A DNA stretch of 32,918 bases, from assembly GCA_025054835.1 (NCBI GenBank), contig JANWZQ010000178.1, positions 1-32,918 on the forward strand. Reading direction: 5' to 3'. The translations under genes and the position numbers were made by a program. This stretch comes from Chthonomonadaceae bacterium. Lineage in GTDB: Bacteria; Armatimonadota; Chthonomonadetes; Chthonomonadales; Chthonomonadaceae. Each line of letters opens with the position of its first letter. The stretch's first letter is position 1. This document shows positions 943-32,918 of this stretch, piece by piece. Below the pieces are notes generated by a model. The model saw only the letters and a program-made list of their open reading frames with translations, did not search any database and was not told the origin of the DNA.

Positions 943-2271
943 TCAGGCGAGGGCGGCGTCGACTTTTGCGATGGCGCGGGCCATGAGTTGCGCGTGTTGC
1001 TGTGTCATGCGGAGGTTGAAGCTGAAGCGGATGGCGCGGTGGAGGATGTAGAGGGAGCGCGGGCAGCCTTCGGGGTGGTAGGTGATGTTGCCGGGCGGGA
1101 GGTTGTGGAGGGGCCGGGTGTAGTGGGGGTCTTTCCATGGGTATCCTGCGGGGTGGGGGCTATTTTGCTGGAGGATGGAGGTCCAGTTGCGGTAGATGTG
1201 TCGGTCGGGGAAGCCTGCGGGGTTGTAGGCGGTGCCGCAGGGGAGTCCTTCGGCGCGGAGGGCTTCGGCGTAGCGCTGTGCGGTGTCGGGGTCGTGGCAG
1301 AGGATGGCGGCGCTGATGCCGCAGTCGCCTTCGGGGTCGTCGACGTGCTGGAGGCGGTAGCCGCGGGGTCGGGGCTGGAGGTGGAGTTCGTGGAGGAAGG
1401 TGGTTTTGAGGGTGCGGGTGTGTGTGAGGAGTGTGTGGAGTTTGCGGAGCTGGACGCGGAGGATGGCGGAGGCGATTTCGCTGGCACGGAAGCAGTGGAG
1501 GGAGAAGGGGGGTGTGCTCCACTGTTGTTTGTCTTCGTGGTCGCGCATCCAGAGGGGCATTGCAGGGTCGGAGGCGAGGCAGGCGCGTTCGAAGAGGTGT
1601 TCGTGGTTGGTGAAGAGGAGCCCTCCTTCGCCGGCGGTGAGGATTTTGAAGTGATTGAAGCTCCAGATGCCGGCGTGTCCGAAGGTGCCAACGATTTGCC
1701 GGTGGTAGCGCGCGCCGATGGCCTGTGCGCAGTCTTCGATGACGGGGATGTTGTGTTGCTGTGCGATGTGGAGGATGTCGTGGAGGCGGGCGGGGATGCC
1801 CTGCATGTGGACGGGGATGATGGCGCGTGTGCGCGGTGTGATTCTGTTCGGGAGGTCTGCGGGGTCGAGTCCGAGGGATTCGTCGATTTCGGCGATGACG
1901 GGCACGGCTCCGACGGCGGCGACGGCAGCGGGCGTTGCGATGTAGGTGTAGGCGGGCACGATGACTTCGTCTCCGGGGCCGATGCCGAGGCCGTGGAGGG
2001 CGCAGATGAGCGCGGAGGTGCCGCTGTTGACGGCGAGCGCGTGCCGGACGCCGATGAGGTTTGCGGCTTCGTGTTCGAAGGCACGGGTCTGGCTTTCGGG
2101 GTTGTGACGGAAGAGGTTTTTTGAGAGGAGGGTTTGTGTGACGGCGTGGATTTCTTCGTGGTCGATGGCGTCGGCACCGAGTCCGCCGCTGAAGGTGGGT
2201 ACGGGTGGCTGGATGAGGGGTTCTCCGCCGTGGAGGGCGAGTCGGGTGTTGTGTGTGGCGTGTGCTGACAT
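943..2271 (-). CDS. DegT/DnrJ/EryC1/StrS family PLP aminotransferase
   Basis: A PLP-dependent sugar or cyclitol aminotransferase of the DegT/DnrJ/EryC1/StrS family (fold type I), 442 residues, at the long end of the family. The PLP lysine is probably K209 in SFNHFKILTAGEGG. The pyridine-ring aspartate is D180 in PVIEDCAQAIGA. The phosphate-binding stretch is VNSGTSALICALHGLGIGPG (82-101), followed by DEVIVPAYTYIAT. Members transfer an amino group from Glu or Gln to keto-sugars or keto-cyclitols; some act as sugar dehydratases or regulators. The substrate cannot be read from sequence. The ATG at 2271 has an AAGGAG Shine-Dalgarno 9 nt upstream. The gene lies 36 bp after the XylA-like isomerase and 87 bp before the SDR gene, which suggests one sugar-modifying operon. 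Codons end heavily in C, unlike plus-strand neighbours that favour G. Confidence 0.93.
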   Translation of the reverse strand: MSAHATHNTRLALHGGEPLIQPPVPTFSGGLGADAIDHEEIHAVTQTLLSKNLFRHNPESQTRAFEHEAANLIGVRHALAVNSGTSALICALHGLGIGPGDEVIVPAYTYIATPAAVAAVGAVPVIAEIDESLGLDPADLPNRITPRTRAIIPVHMQGIPARLHDILHIAQQHNIPVIEDCAQAIGARYHRQIVGTFGHAGIWSFNHFKILTAGEGGLLFTNHEHLFERACLASDPAMPLWMRDHEDKQQWSTPPFSLHCFRASEIASAILRVQLRKLHTLLTHTRTLKTTFLHELHLQPRPRGYRLQHVDDPEGDCGISAAILCHDPDTAQRYAEALRAEGLPCGTAYNPAGFPDRHIYRNWTSILQQNSPHPAGYPWKDPHYTRPLHNLPPGNITYHPEGCPRSLYILHRAIRFSFNLRMTQQHAQLMARAIAKVDAALA

Positions 2272-14000: not shown

Positions 14001-15197
14001 ATGGAGCGTGTTCCGGGCGGGGTGTTGCCCTCGCAGTGGATTCGTACAGCGATCCGGGATGGCGTGATCACGGCGTGTGCGCCATTCGGGGCACGGCAGG
14101 TGCAGCCGAACAGCCTGGACCTGCGTCTGGGGGACGTGGGCTATCGGGTGCAGTGCAGTTTTCTGCCGGGCGAGGAGGGCGTGGAGCGGAAGCTGGCGCG
14201 CTTCGGGTGGTATCGGTTCGCGATACCGGAGGAGGGGGCAGTTCTGGAGCGGAATCAGGTGTATCTGTTTCCGCTGTGCGAGCGATTGTGTTTGCCTGCG
14301 GAGGTGTATGCGCGGGGCAATCCGAAGAGTTCGACCGGGCGTCTGGATGTGTTCACGCGTCTGGTGACGGAGTACGGGCGACATTTTGACGATGTACCGT
14401 GCGGGTACCGGGGGGCGCTCTATCTGGAGGTGGTGCCGCGCTCGTTCGCGATCCGGGTGCGTCCGGGGGACTCGCTGTCGCAGATCCGTTTTCAGACGGG
14501 CGCGCCGCAGCTGGATCGCGCGGAGACGTTGCGTCTGCTGGACGCGGATGCGATTTTGCTGGGTCCAGATCTGCAGGTGTTGCGCTCGCGGGATGTGACG
14601 GTAGCGTCGGGGCTGGTGCTGTCGGTGAGTTTGCCCCGCAGGGGGGGGACAGTGGGCTTTGTGGCGCGGAAGAATACAGCCCCGATTGATCTGCGCGCGG
14701 TGGGGCAGGCGCGGATCCGGCACTACTGGGATCGGATTCACGGGGATAACAAGCCGGTGATTCTGGAGCCGGATGAGTTCTACATTTTTGCTTCACGGGA
14801 GCTGGTGCGGTTGCCGCCGCAGTACTGCGCGGAGATGGTGGCATTTGACGCGAGCAGCGGGGAATTGCGCACGCACTATGCCGGGTTCTTCGACTCGGGC
14901 TTCGGGTATGCAGCGGGGCGCGCGCCGGAGCAGAGCGCGGCGGCAGTGGTGCTGGAGGTGCGGAGCCGGGATGTGCCGTTTTTGATTGAGGACGGGCAGC
15001 CGTTGTTCCGGGTGCATCTATTGCGGTGTGTGGAGCCCCCGGACATTCTGTACGGGGCGGATCTGGGGTCCAATTACCAGTCGCAACGTTTGCGACTTGG
15101 CAAGCAGTTCACGCAGGTTGTAGAGGATGAGGAGGAAGGGCCGGGGCAACCGCGGCTGGACTTCGCTACGAGTGTACAGGAGGAGTGTGCAGAATGA
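14001..15197 (+). CDS. dcd: 2'-deoxycytidine 5'-triphosphate deaminase, long two-half form
   Basis: A dCTP deaminase of the long type, 398 residues, about twice the roughly 190-residue E. coli Dcd. The reaction is dCTP to dUTP plus ammonia, feeding dTTP synthesis. The first half has QPNSLDLRLG (35-44), NPKSSTGRLDVFTR (107-120) and YRGALYLEVV with a Glu (E143) in the position of the catalytic glutamate. The second half repeats the fold, with AGFFDSGFGYAAG and VVLEVRSRDVPFLIEDGQ, so it is an internal duplication or fusion of two trimeric dUTPase-like units. A Glu/Asp-rich tail ends the protein. It starts 3 bp after the Gfo/Idh/MocA stop and overlaps the zinc-ribbon gene by ATGA (15194-15197). 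Confidence 0.9.
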   Translation: MERVPGGVLPSQWIRTAIRDGVITACAPFGARQVQPNSLDLRLGDVGYRVQCSFLPGEEGVERKLARFGWYRFAIPEEGAVLERNQVYLFPLCERLCLPAEVYARGNPKSSTGRLDVFTRLVTEYGRHFDDVPCGYRGALYLEVVPRSFAIRVRPGDSLSQIRFQTGAPQLDRAETLRLLDADAILLGPDLQVLRSRDVTVASGLVLSVSLPRRGGTVGFVARKNTAPIDLRAVGQARIRHYWDRIHGDNKPVILEPDEFYIFASRELVRLPPQYCAEMVAFDASSGELRTHYAGFFDSGFGYAAGRAPEQSAAAVVLEVRSRDVPFLIEDGQPLFRVHLLRCVEPPDILYGADLGSNYQSQRLRLGKQFTQVVEDEEEGPGQPRLDFATSVQEECAE

Positions 15198-16108
15198 TTG
15201 GACATTGTCCGCGGTGCAGTACGCCTCTGGAGCAGACGACAGTGGGCACAGTGCATGTGGACGGGTGCCACGGTTGCGGCGGGGTGTGGTTTGATCATCG
15301 GGAGCTGGGGCAGATTGCGCAGGCGCACGCGGCGGATCTGAAGGAGCTGGATGCACGTTTTGTGCCGGGTGCCGGAGTGCTGGCGGACGGGAACATGCTG
15401 TGCCCGGTGTGTGACGTGGTGCTGTTTGAGTTTGAATTCAAGCACTCGCCGGGGATCAAGCTGGATGCCTGCCCGCAGTGCCGGGGCATCTGGGCGGACA
15501 ACGGGGAGCTGATGGCAATTTATGATCGGATCACGCGGTCGTTGTCACGCGCGGCGACGGCGGCCCGGCCGGCAGTGCGCACGCTATCGACGCGTCAGAA
15601 GGCTCGTCAGGCGATGCACTTCCTGGTAAGCCGGCAGTGCAGTGGGTGCGGGGAGGCGAATCCGCGTGGCAGTCTGGTGTGCTGGGCCTGCGGGAAGGTG
15701 CTAGCCGGGCAGCAGGATAAGGAGTGCCCGGATTGTGAGATCCCGTTGCAGTCGCATACATTTGACGCGGTGGGTACCGTGGATATCTGCCCGGCATGTT
15801 GCGGGGTGTGGCTGGATCATCGGGAGCTGGCCGGTGTGGTGCGGCGGACGGATGCGGAGTTGCGCCCGTTGATGGATGCGGTAAGCCGTCCTTCGGTGGC
15901 TCCGCAGGGGCGTTTGACGCCGGGGGCGGAGTATCTGTGTCCGGTATGTTCTTCGGTGCTGGAGGAACGGCAGTACGGTTACAATTCGGGTATCCGGATC
16001 GATGTGTGCGAGGAGTGCGGCGGGGTGTGGCTCGGGGCAGATGAGCTGCGCCGGACGGTGGAGTACTACCGACGGGAGCAGGGCCTCGGGGGCGATAGAG
16101 CAGTTTGA
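15194..16108 (+). CDS. Protein with four TFIIB-type zinc ribbons and a central Cys4 zinc site
   Basis: A 304-residue protein of unknown function built almost only from zinc-binding modules. Four TFIIB-like ribbons follow the pattern CPxC, about 16-19 residues, CxxC-x-G-V/I-W-x-D/A-x-x-E-L. They are at C5/C8-C25/C28, C70/C73-C93/C96, C178/C181-C199/C202 and C249/C252-C272/C275. A different Cys4 site, CSGCG with CWACG (C149/C152-C163/C166), sits in the middle between two pairs. An Arg/Ala-rich linker (about 112-146) precedes it. The A-B-x-A'-B' order looks like an internal duplication. Short two-ribbon relatives exist widely in bacteria without a known role. The start has AGGAGGAG 8 nt upstream, and the ATG overlaps the dcd stop, so the two are translationally coupled. 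Nucleic-acid or protein binding is only a guess. Confidence 0.85.
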   Translation: MIGHCPRCSTPLEQTTVGTVHVDGCHGCGGVWFDHRELGQIAQAHAADLKELDARFVPGAGVLADGNMLCPVCDVVLFEFEFKHSPGIKLDACPQCRGIWADNGELMAIYDRITRSLSRAATAARPAVRTLSTRQKARQAMHFLVSRQCSGCGEANPRGSLVCWACGKVLAGQQDKECPDCEIPLQSHTFDAVGTVDICPACCGVWLDHRELAGVVRRTDAELRPLMDAVSRPSVAPQGRLTPGAEYLCPVCSSVLEERQYGYNSGIRIDVCEECGGVWLGADELRRTVEYYRREQGLGGDRAV

Positions 16109-30238: not shown

Positions 30239-30310
30239 AGCCGACGGTCGGATTCGAACCGACGGCCTGCGGTTTACGAAACCGCTGCTCTACCGCTGAG
30301 CCACGTCGGC
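30239..30310 (-). tRNA. trnT: tRNA-Thr, anticodon CGU (reads ACG)
   Basis: The 72-nt minus-strand sequence folds as a full cloverleaf. It has a 7-bp acceptor stem GCCGACG/CGTCGGC, a D-arm GCTC-AGCGGTA-GAGC, an anticodon stem GCGGT/ACCGC with loop TTCGTAA (anticodon CGT), a 5-nt variable loop, and a T-arm GTCGG-TTCGAAT-CCGAC. The discriminator base is U, and the 3' CCA is not encoded. It has a strong promoter (30332-30361) and its own terminator, so it is a single-gene unit. A GGTGCC-AGATG-GGCACC hairpin lies at 30312-30328, in the 5' leader between promoter and tRNA. Confidence 0.97.
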
Positions 30311-30499: not shown

Positions 30500-31033
30500 A
30501 TGATGAAGATCGCTGGATGGATCGTTGCGGTGTGCTTGCTGACTGCCGGTTCTGGCGTGCTTGCGGGCCCGCCCGCCAAAGGCAAGGCGAAGACGACGCG
30601 CTTGCAGGAAGTGTGGACCTGCCCGATCTCCGGTGCGAAGGTCACGGACAAAAAGTCCAGAACGGCTGTTGTGGGGAACTATCGGGTGCACTTCTGCTGT
30701 GCCAGTTGCCCTCAGGCGTTCGCCAAGCTGAGCGCGAAGGAGAAGCAGGCCAAGGCGGCTGAGGCGGCGAAGAAGGACAGGGCGAGCGCCCGGAAGCCGA
30801 AGGAGGTTGCCGAGGCGGCGCCAGAGGCCCCGGCAGAGGAGGCCATCAAGGACGTGTGGGTCTGCCCGATTTCCGGTCAGGAAGTACGGGATCGGGAGGG
30901 GGCCCGGGCGAACGCGGTTGTCGTGGGGAACTACCGGGTGCACTTCTGCTGTGACGGGTGCCCCTCGGCGTTCGCGAAATTGAGTGAAGCGGAGAAGCTG
31001 GAGAAAGCTGAGGCCGCTGCGAAGAAGAACTAG
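30500..31033 (+). CDS. Exported protein with two tandem YHS/TRASH-like Cys-rich metal sites
   Basis: A 177-residue protein with a Sec signal peptide (MMKIAGWIVAVCLLTAGSGV then LA, cleaved about residue 22), so it works outside the cytoplasm. Two near-copies of a small domain follow. Copy 1 runs from VWTCPISGAKV (38-48) to NYRVHFCCASC (60-70); copy 2 from VWVCPISGQEV (119-129) to NYRVHFCCDGC (144-154). Each has CPISG, about 20 residues, then HFCC-x2-C, giving C41/C66/C67/C70 and C122/C150/C151/C154. YHS and TRASH domains bind soft metals such as copper with a similar Cys layout; metal binding here is inferred. A Lys/Ala/Glu-rich linker joins the copies, and a similar Lys/Ala-rich tail ends the protein. 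CAGGAG lies 7 nt before the first of two ATG codons. The partner protein is unknown. Confidence 0.87.
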   Translation: MMKIAGWIVAVCLLTAGSGVLAGPPAKGKAKTTRLQEVWTCPISGAKVTDKKSRTAVVGNYRVHFCCASCPQAFAKLSAKEKQAKAAEAAKKDRASARKPKEVAEAAPEAPAEEAIKDVWVCPISGQEVRDREGARANAVVVGNYRVHFCCDGCPSAFAKLSEAEKLEKAEAAAKKN

Positions 31034-31069
31034 GGAGCGCATTCCGGCAATCGATGCGCGAGGTCTCGA

Positions 31070-31102
31070 GGCAGGGGCGCAGGTATAGAAAGCGCCCCTG
31101 CC
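31070..31102 (+). terminator. Hairpin after the tandem metal-site gene
   Basis: A perfect 11-bp GC-rich stem (31070-31080 with 31092-31102) and an 11-nt loop, 37 bp after the stop. Only two T residues follow, so termination may be partial, leaving some read-through to the DUF2344-rng genes. Confidence 0.55.
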
Positions 31103-31177
31103 TTGCAGTGATGCCTCCGCGTACGCATCCGGGGTGTGTTCCCATGGCGGGTTCTGTACGCTCGCCAGCACCGTTGC

Positions 31178-31843
31178 ATGCCCAGATACCTGCTGACGTT
31201 TGAGAAAGGTGAGCCGGTTCGCTGGCTCAATCACCTCGATATCCTCCGTACGTTCGAGCGCGCGATCCGCCGCTCCGGTCTGCCAGTGGCTTTCTCGCAG
31301 GGGTTCAACCCGCGGGAGCGCCTGGCATTTGCCTCCGCGCTGGGTACCGGGATCACTGGGGAAGCGGAGAAGGCGACACTGGAACTGACCGCCCCTCTGG
31401 ATCCTGCAGACGTTCGGGAGCGGCTCAACGCGGCGCTTCCCCCCGGGATTCGCATCCATGCCTGTGAGCTGATCCCGGATGCTGGTGCGCGCGACCTGCT
31501 GAACGCCTACACGCGTGCGGAGTACCGGCTGCTCTGTCGGTGCCCGGAGGGGGTGACAGAGCATGAGGTGGTGGATGCGATAGAGCGTTTCCTGAGCGAG
31601 ACCGATGTGCCGTTTGCGCGGGAGCGCGAAGGGAAAGTCCGGTCGATTAACATGCGTTCGCTGGTGGAGTTACTGGCATGTGAGGCGGGATCCTGTCGGG
31701 AGGGGCAGGTGGTGCTGCGCGCCGTGATGGTGCTGGCGGCCACAGGGGCGGCACGCCCGGTGGAGGTTGTGCAGGCACTGAGCGCGTTCCTGCCCGGGCT
31801 GACGCTCCGGCGGGCGCATCGCGTACGGTTGCTGGGTGCGTGA
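31178..31843 (+). CDS. DUF2344 (TIGR03936) radical-SAM-linked protein
   Basis: A 221-residue protein of the DUF2344 family, usually encoded just after a B12-binding radical SAM protein (TIGR03960) or fused to it. Seen: PRYLLTFEKGEPVRWLNHLD (2-21), then ILRTFERAIRRSGLPVAFSQ and GFNPRERLAFASALGTGITG, the conserved N-terminal half. The function is unknown; links with tRNA or ribosome modification have been guessed from neighbours. The radical SAM partner is missing: the metal-site gene sits in its place. As in Firmicutes, the next gene is rng, 30 bp downstream. ATG 31178 starts the conserved part but has no clear Shine-Dalgarno; GTG 31136 is in frame but adds a non-conserved leader. Confidence 0.88.
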   Translation: MPRYLLTFEKGEPVRWLNHLDILRTFERAIRRSGLPVAFSQGFNPRERLAFASALGTGITGEAEKATLELTAPLDPADVRERLNAALPPGIRIHACELIPDAGARDLLNAYTRAEYRLLCRCPEGVTEHEVVDAIERFLSETDVPFAREREGKVRSINMRSLVELLACEAGSCREGQVVLRAVMVLAATGAARPVEVVQALSAFLPGLTLRRAHRVRLLGA

Positions 31844-31873: not shown

Positions 31874-32918
31874 TTGTCCAAGGAGATTTACGTGAACGTG
31901 GGCGATCGAGAGACGCGGATCGCCGTGGTCGAGGATGGTAAGCTGGTCGAGTTGCATATGGAGCGGGCCGAACGGGTCGTGGGTAGCCTGTACAAGTGTC
32001 GGGTGGCCAACGTGCTTCCCGGGATGGACGCCGCGTTTGTGGATATCGGTCTGGAGCGGAACGCGTTTCTGTATGTGGGGGATGTGCTCCCGATGAGCGA
32101 AGACGCCTGGCGTGTCAGTGACGGGCGAGAGTATCCACACGATGCGCCTTCCGGGACGGACATGATTGAGGCGTCTTCACCGGTGGCGGATGTGGAGATT
32201 GTGGAGAGCGGGGAGCCGCTGGAGCTACCCGATGGGGACTCGCTGGAGGTCCCGATGGAGACCGGGACCGGGGAGGACCGTGCGGGCATTCCCCCGGAGG
32301 AAGGGGATGCGGTTGTGGAGGAGGGGGTAAATCCCGCCGCGTTGATAGACCCGACGGGCGAGAAGCTGGCGGCACGCCCCCGGAGGAGTTACCGGCGTTC
32401 TGCACTGCGGCAACAGCGGATCAAGGATGTGTTACGTGTGGGGCAGGAATTGCTGGTGCAGGTCATCAAAGGGCCCCGCAGTACCAAAGGAGCACGGGTG
32501 TCGACCCGGATCTCTCTGCCCGGGCGTTATCTGGTGCTGATGCCGGAGGGCGATATGCTGGGGGTCTCGCGCAAGATTGAGGATGGTAGAGAGCGAGACC
32601 GGTTGCGCAAGATCGGCGAGCGATTGCGCGAGCCCGGGTTCGGTCTGATCGTTCGTACGGAGGCGGAGGAGAAGACCGAGGAGGAGTTGCGCAGCGACTA
32701 CGAATTCCTGATGCGCACGTGGCGTCAGATCCAGGAGACGGCGCGCAAGGTGAGTGCGCCCGCGCTGGTGCAGCAGGACCTCTCGCTGCTTTACAAGACC
32801 ATCCGCGACGTGTTCGGGTCGGATGTGCAGAAGCTGGTGATCGATGACCCTGCCGAGTACGAGAAGGCGAATGCCTTGCTGGAGCGTCTTTCGCCGAAAT
32901 TGCGGGGGCGGATCCATC
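31874..32918 (+). CDS. rng: Ribonuclease G/E (C-terminus beyond window)
   Basis: An RNase G/E-family endoribonuclease that cuts single-stranded AU-rich RNA in rRNA maturation and mRNA decay. About 348 residues are visible. The TTG start has AGGAGG 5 nt upstream and gives SKEIYVNVGDRETRIAVVED. The S1 domain begins with LYKCRVANVLPGMDAAFVDI and GLERNAFLYVGDV (about 39-71) and resumes at IKDVLRVGQELLVQVIKGP (183-201). An insert of about 110 residues, rich in Glu, Asp, Gly and Pro and ending in an Arg-rich patch, separates the halves; E. coli RNase G has roughly 25-35 residues there. Then come ISLPGRYLVLMPEGDMLGVS, GFGLIVRTEAEEK and the RNase H-like region. The catalytic Asp pair lies beyond the edge. 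It follows the DUF2344 gene by 30 bp and is probably co-transcribed. Confidence 0.94.
   Translation, partial: MSKEIYVNVGDRETRIAVVEDGKLVELHMERAERVVGSLYKCRVANVLPGMDAAFVDIGLERNAFLYVGDVLPMSEDAWRVSDGREYPHDAPSGTDMIEASSPVADVEIVESGEPLELPDGDSLEVPMETGTGEDRAGIPPEEGDAVVEEGVNPAALIDPTGEKLAARPRRSYRRSALRQQRIKDVLRVGQELLVQVIKGPRSTKGARVSTRISLPGRYLVLMPEGDMLGVSRKIEDGRERDRLRKIGERLREPGFGLIVRTEAEEKTEEELRSDYEFLMRTWRQIQETARKVSAPALVQQDLSLLYKTIRDVFGSDVQKLVIDDPAEYEKANALLERLSPKLRGRIH

Follow-up and report, generated by a model that had tools for sequence, protein, structure and literature searches.

A small, apparently exported protein with two TRASH domains from the Chthonomonadaceae and its possible role in copper handling

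TRASH and YHS domains are widespread, yet in the literature as far as it was consulted metal binding has been tested in few of the proteins that carry them. Among the closest described arrangements is that of the rhizobial copper ATPases, which bear two copies of the TRASH/YHS domain at their N-terminus (PMC5552934). Elsewhere, Cu2+ is the one metal, among those tested with Mg2+, that elicits a response from an adenylyl cyclase containing a YHS domain (PMC4626032), while CopR versions without the TRASH domain show a lower copper response in gel shifts (PMC7830388). Outside the cytoplasm, the periplasmic protein SilE binds Ag+ via His/Met motifs (PMC5008109).

We analyzed a stretch of 32,918 nucleotides from a Chthonomonadaceae bacterium (the window), which codes on its forward strand for a 177-residue protein with a pair of TRASH domains (30500..31033; ATG at 30500, stop codon ending at 31033). 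It begins with a signal-peptide-like stretch, delineated by eye (residues 1-22, ending SGVLA/G; 30500..30565), followed by domain 1 (residues 38-92; 30611..30775), a linker rich in A, E, K and P (30776..30853), whose residues 98-114 are modeled with a pLDDT below 50, and domain 2 (residues 119-176; 30854..31027), with the domain limits drawn from Pfam, the cysteine pattern and the structural model. Both halves are versions of a CPISG...HFCC-x2-C domain with a C...CC-x2-C pattern; the protein has cysteines at positions 12, 41, 66, 67, 70, 122, 150, 151 and 154, with C41, C66-C67 and C70 lying in domain 1 and C122, C150-C151 and C154 in domain 2. As in the rhizobial ATPases, two TRASH-type domains stand in a row, and there is a weak match to PF12156; however, the ATPase domains serve a membrane transporter as its metal-binding N-terminus (PMC5552934), whereas the present pair is free-standing and preceded by a signal-peptide-like start. 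A search of the literature, judged by titles and the beginnings of abstracts, found no description of this family among the matches listed. Hence, the first-pass annotation, which knew of no characterized protein with this layout, holds insofar as no free-standing exported pair was found in that literature, but not for the pairing itself, which the rhizobial ATPases already display (PMC5552934).

The signal-peptide-like N-terminus, read by eye, is common to the window protein and the relatives whose N-termini were read, in agreement with the export claimed earlier, and the protein is apparently an exported, small and soluble one. A lipoprotein reading found no support by eye, as Cys12 comes after a valine and lies outside any lipobox. 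A cysteine inside the hydrophobic stretch, there following a leucine, is also present in the relatives from G020, G023, G024, G025 and G028, and those from G017 and G018 show a lipobox-like LLAC, suggesting that some relatives may be lipidated.

By profile, the protein is a member of the TRASH family, an assignment that carries no claim of an identical metal site. The whole protein matches Pfam PF24273 (TRASH_HVO_1752_C) with 37.8 bits over two matched stretches (E 2.1e-9; cut-off 27), while neither domain reaches that cut-off alone (25.4 and 20.5 bits). The likeness to the C-terminal domain of HVO_1752 lies in this whole-protein match; the signal-peptide-like start and the presence of two domains set the window protein apart from it. 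YHS (Pfam PF04945), for which the protein reaches 8.4 bits where 30.3 are required, was rejected as the family name, such that of the YHS/TRASH-like fold suggested at first reading, the TRASH part is borne out by the profiles and the YHS part is not. NCBIfam returned only rubredoxin (17.7; cut-off 90) and FeS repair (11.7; cut-off 204.7) for the window protein, both far under threshold. We further examined an alignment of 31 domains, two of them from the window protein (A4), which omits 8 of 39 domains (those from G003, G004, G007, G015, G023 and G025, and two from a triple-domain protein of G012). All 31 match PF24273 at E <= 0.1, 15 show a weak match to PF12156, a domain of cation-transport ATPases with putative metal binding, and nine match YHS, the best at E 2.5e-12.

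The invariant columns of this alignment are C4, C29, C30 and C33 only, with a phenylalanine before the CC and another four residues past the last cysteine being near-invariant. In some relatives, another residue (Y, L, T, N or W) takes the place of the HFCC histidine, which is thus unlikely to be an obligatory ligand. The CC-x2-C pattern is present in 30/30 related loci examined, these loci having been found by homology and the domains collected from them by a pattern requiring CC-x2-C. The TRASH domain as first published by Ettema in 2003 reportedly has the spacing C-x19-22-C-x3-C. In the window protein the C...C-x3-C pattern recurs as C41..C66-x3-C70 and C122..C150-x3-C154, with 24 and 27 residues, respectively, between the first and second cysteines, a loop whose length varies among the relatives. 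In YHS/TRASH domains, a further ligand, Asp or Cys, is described at the third position upstream of the first conserved cysteine (PMC4626032). This position is a valine in both window copies and is unconserved in the family, and we infer that the extra adjacent cysteine may replace the upstream ligand.

An AlphaFold2 model of domain 2 built with four sequences has a mean pLDDT of 79.9 and comprises strands at 2-6, 24-27 and 30-33 and helices at 39-44 and 48-61. The full-length model has a pLDDT of 68.9 and a pTM of 0.35, with residues 1-32, like the linker segment mentioned above, under 50. With the domain model as query, neither Foldseek against the PDB (E <= 0.001) nor VIA-align against 23 chains (Z >= 2) gave a match. 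Sequence searches of the PDB gave a best E of 0.094 for the single sequence, nothing for a second profile (A3; 134 positions long, because the two-domain row of locus L005 was kept whole), and a best E of 0.026 for profile A4, to a segment of phenol hydroxylase.

In the NCBI taxonomy, the Chthonomonadales belong to the Chthonomonadia within the Armatimonadota. A scan of genome contigs recovered two relatives, in MAGs of Chthonomonadales and of Chthonomonas calidirosea, and some match at E <= 0.01 is present in 28/31 genomes of the window's class, where 36 match places were listed and six without a locus (C7 of G028 among them) were left out. We delimited a subfamily by a gap in the A3 scores, with at least 73.3 bits in and at most 42.0 out, the class members used to build A3 matching it by construction. 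So defined, it is found in 23 of the 31 class genomes, including 15 of the 17 in the window's family, and in three of the 260 other genomes of the phylum searched (G031, G033 and G058, the first by score only). Twenty of the 23 class members read are single-domain proteins, as are those of G033 and G058; two subfamily domains occur among the 23 solely in the window protein and in G011, and the G012 member pairs one subfamily domain with a YHS-like domain. No plasmid relatives were found at E 0.01. To judge from sequence, the window protein is fairly ordinary, a doubled member of a usually single-domain and already known TRASH kind. The apparently exported one- and two-domain versions of this free-standing, soluble family would offer an easy system for establishing what the domain binds and how doubling bears on affinity or capacity.

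The same class also has YHS-like paralogues of the form CPVMG...YKGxxYYFCCxxC...DP, one of them in the window's own genome (C35 of G000). These share the cysteine pattern of the window protein but branch separately in the domain tree (100/99), mostly have Y/F rather than H before the FCC, and in most cases have a DP-type motif after it. A separate paralogue of G012 has three tandem YHS-like TRASH domains (L032, about 1246-2157, forward strand), and in G021 a C-terminal YHS-like domain sits on a longer open frame with His/Met segments (L033, about 964-1689, forward strand). Two single-domain relatives (L048, 8056-8484, reverse strand; L049, 8023-8436, forward strand) carry C-terminal repeated Met motifs, like some soft-metal-binding proteins.

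The likeness between the two halves of the window protein is far above chance. The domains are identical at 36 of 59 aligned residues, and BLASTP of one half against the other gives 75.5 bits (E 1e-25, calculated for these two sequences alone). In DNA, the repeat extends over 116 nt at 76% identity (30663-30778 versus 30915-31030) and over a further 29 nt at 86% (30606-30634 versus 30849-30877). These figures bear out the domain duplication first noticed from the sequence; its description as recent or gene-converted fares less well. The two domains use the same codon at 22 of 35 identical residues with multiple codons, where the codon usage of 20 genes in the window predicts 15.8 (P 0.023). 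Conversely, the codons differ at the other 13 of the 35, and six of 16 four-fold sites differ, for which reason the doubling does not appear to be very recent. Comparison of the window domains with those of other genera shows shared codons at 475 of 1018 identical residues, with GC3 differing between the genomes and single pairs reaching up to 0.70. Gene conversion was not retained as a needed explanation, codon sharing being just slightly over expectation, and is a possible rather than a necessary contributor.

In a tree of 36 domains over 63 columns, the window's two domains are sisters with a support of 88/74, which is not decisive, and the two of G011 are not sisters. AU tests rejected a single origin for the doubled forms of the window and G011, set up as one clade of all four domains (p 0.0035), as well as a clade of the two first domains (p 0.0013); a clade of the two second domains gave p 0.051, and G011's own pair as a clade was not rejected (p 0.178). 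From these rejections and the tree, the doubling in the window protein appears to be specific to its lineage and independent of the one in G011.

A TRASH-type domain combined with a signal-peptide-like start makes metal binding likely, in keeping with what the first-pass annotation had proposed. As for function, our leading reading, held tentatively and drawn by analogy, is that the protein may buffer or deliver copper outside the cytoplasm. We envisage a soluble, Sec-exported protein whose two TRASH domains, joined by a flexible linker, would each bind a single soft metal ion, most probably Cu(I), through the first cysteine and those of the CC-x2-C motif; copper would then be buffered outside the cytoplasm or passed on, for example, to efflux or to the assembly of oxidase. 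The lineage-specific doubling would provide two sites per chain. The choice of copper derives from the TRASH precedents, from Met-rich tails in one genus and from the co-occurrence with COX1 and Sco. The tails belong to the G006 and G007 relatives, with 12 M in 52 residues and 15 M in 58. The linker of G011 has four H and one M in 22 residues; the window protein has no Met- or His-rich stretch, its linker containing neither residue (0 M, 0 H). These tails and the possible periplasmic buffering of soft metals recall the SilE/PcoE metal sponges, but SilE is disordered and His/Met-based rather than a folded cysteine site (PMC5008109), and we claim no sequence relation to it.

COX1 (heme-copper oxidase) is found in 22 of the 23 class genomes with the protein as compared to four of the eight without it (Fisher 0.0098), and Sco in 14 of 23 as compared to none of eight (Fisher 0.0035); both tests ignore kinship, and the eight genomes lacking the protein include three of one genus and three less than 80% complete. 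When the five genomes below 80% completeness are excluded, p becomes 0.014 for COX1 and 0.039 for Sco, again with kinship ignored. G010 has the protein and no COX1 match, and HMA domains, tried as a third family, are uninformative, with 30 of the 31 class genomes having them. The valine in place of the upstream ligand also speaks against copper, as does the lack of a Foldseek match. A more specific version of the copper reading, which we consider doubtful, is that this free-standing exported TRASH family, present in 15 of the 17 genomes of its family within the Chthonomonadia, might be a dedicated Cu(I) carrier for heme-copper oxidase assembly, with a CC-x2-C site that dispenses with the usual upstream ligand and a capacity tuned by domain doubling or Met-rich tails. 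Copper binding, if confirmed, would add a type of carrier in little-studied bacteria.

The genes around the locus bear on a different kind of role. Upstream lies a tRNA-Thr gene on the opposite strand (30239-30310), and downstream, on the same strand as the TRASH gene, a gene for a DUF2344/TIGR03936 radical SAM-associated protein (31178..31843) and one for RNase E/G, cut by the window end (31874..32918). The usual partner of DUF2344/TIGR03936 is a radical SAM gene; none was noticed by eye beside the window copy. The protein could conceivably be a partner of DUF2344 and RNase E/G in RNA or tRNA work instead of handling metal in the envelope, given that DUF2344 follows in 13 of the 27 regions examined and an RNase E/G gene occurs in 13 (G019 is without an RNase match and G005 without DUF2344), across two families. 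Yet no DUF2344 is seen in the other 14 regions (some of the regions end at a contig edge), and the signal-peptide-like start places the protein in another compartment. Moreover, the TRASH and DUF2344 genes are parted in the window by a terminator-like hairpin with a 14-pair stem, an 11-nt loop and no T run (31067..31105, forward strand), which a simple terminator scan did not list. Perfect stems of at least nine pairs (G-T allowed, loop of up to 15) within 110 nt past the TRASH gene occur in 18 of 25 regions and in nine of the 13 with DUF2344, the window included; the remaining four of the 13 have none, which is a point in favor of the RNA-related partnership. The folding energy has z <= -2 in 17 of the 25 regions and in seven of the 13 with DUF2344, with the window at -7.1, as gauged by 100 dinucleotide shuffles per region, which cover folding energy and not stem length; G006 and G007 are near-identical past the TRASH gene. 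We take the TRASH gene to keep a conserved place beside DUF2344 and to be probably transcribed apart from it. The hairpins weaken an operon with DUF2344 and RNase E/G, if leaving it conceivable, and we regard a shared role with these two proteins as highly improbable.

Two further readings keep the protein in the envelope and differ from copper handling in what the cysteines do. Each domain could be a small, zinc-stabilized, partner-binding fold whose metal has no part in trafficking, as the four invariant cysteines might form a Cys4 site, and ribosomal protein L24e, in which four cysteines bind Cd2+, has been described as consisting of one TRASH domain (PMC4626032). It would also agree with our having recognized by eye no copper-specific gene within about 3.5 kb in the regions of nine relatives, nor beside the window gene, a result that counts against the copper reading. 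The adjacency of two of the four cysteines would, however, be awkward for a classic Cys4 zinc site, and the Met-rich tails of one related genus do not suggest zinc, so that we hold this reading to be rather unlikely. Alternatively, the CC-x2-C cysteines could cycle or form structural disulfides with no metal at all; an apparently exported protein with adjacent, presumably redox-prone cysteines would suit such a role, and a predicted periplasmic YHS domain of FetA is clustered with two putative thioredoxins (PMC10783030). Against this, the cysteine pattern fits the TRASH profile, and neither Pfam nor NCBIfam returned a thioredoxin-type family for the window protein, rendering a purely thiol-based function improbable in our estimate.

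Six neighbor proteins in the relatives' regions were scanned against Pfam. In G058, HlyD/CusB-type membrane-fusion and outer-membrane efflux genes lie within 4.6 kb of the TRASH gene on the opposite strand (L091, 2954-6060, reverse strand); these are general efflux parts, counted in favor of the copper reading. Of the proteins scanned in G006, one is of the MFS/HEAT type and another matches a lamin-tail family below threshold. In G017 and G018, small signal-peptide-like proteins with a single CxxCH motif occur in pairs near the TRASH gene (L093, 7882-8717, reverse strand; L050, 6887-7631, forward strand), the two from G017 matching no Pfam family at E 0.001. Elsewhere in the window, a 307-residue protein on the forward strand (15185-16108) contains four Zn_ribbon_TFIIB stretches (Pfam PF13453, E 1.2e-42).
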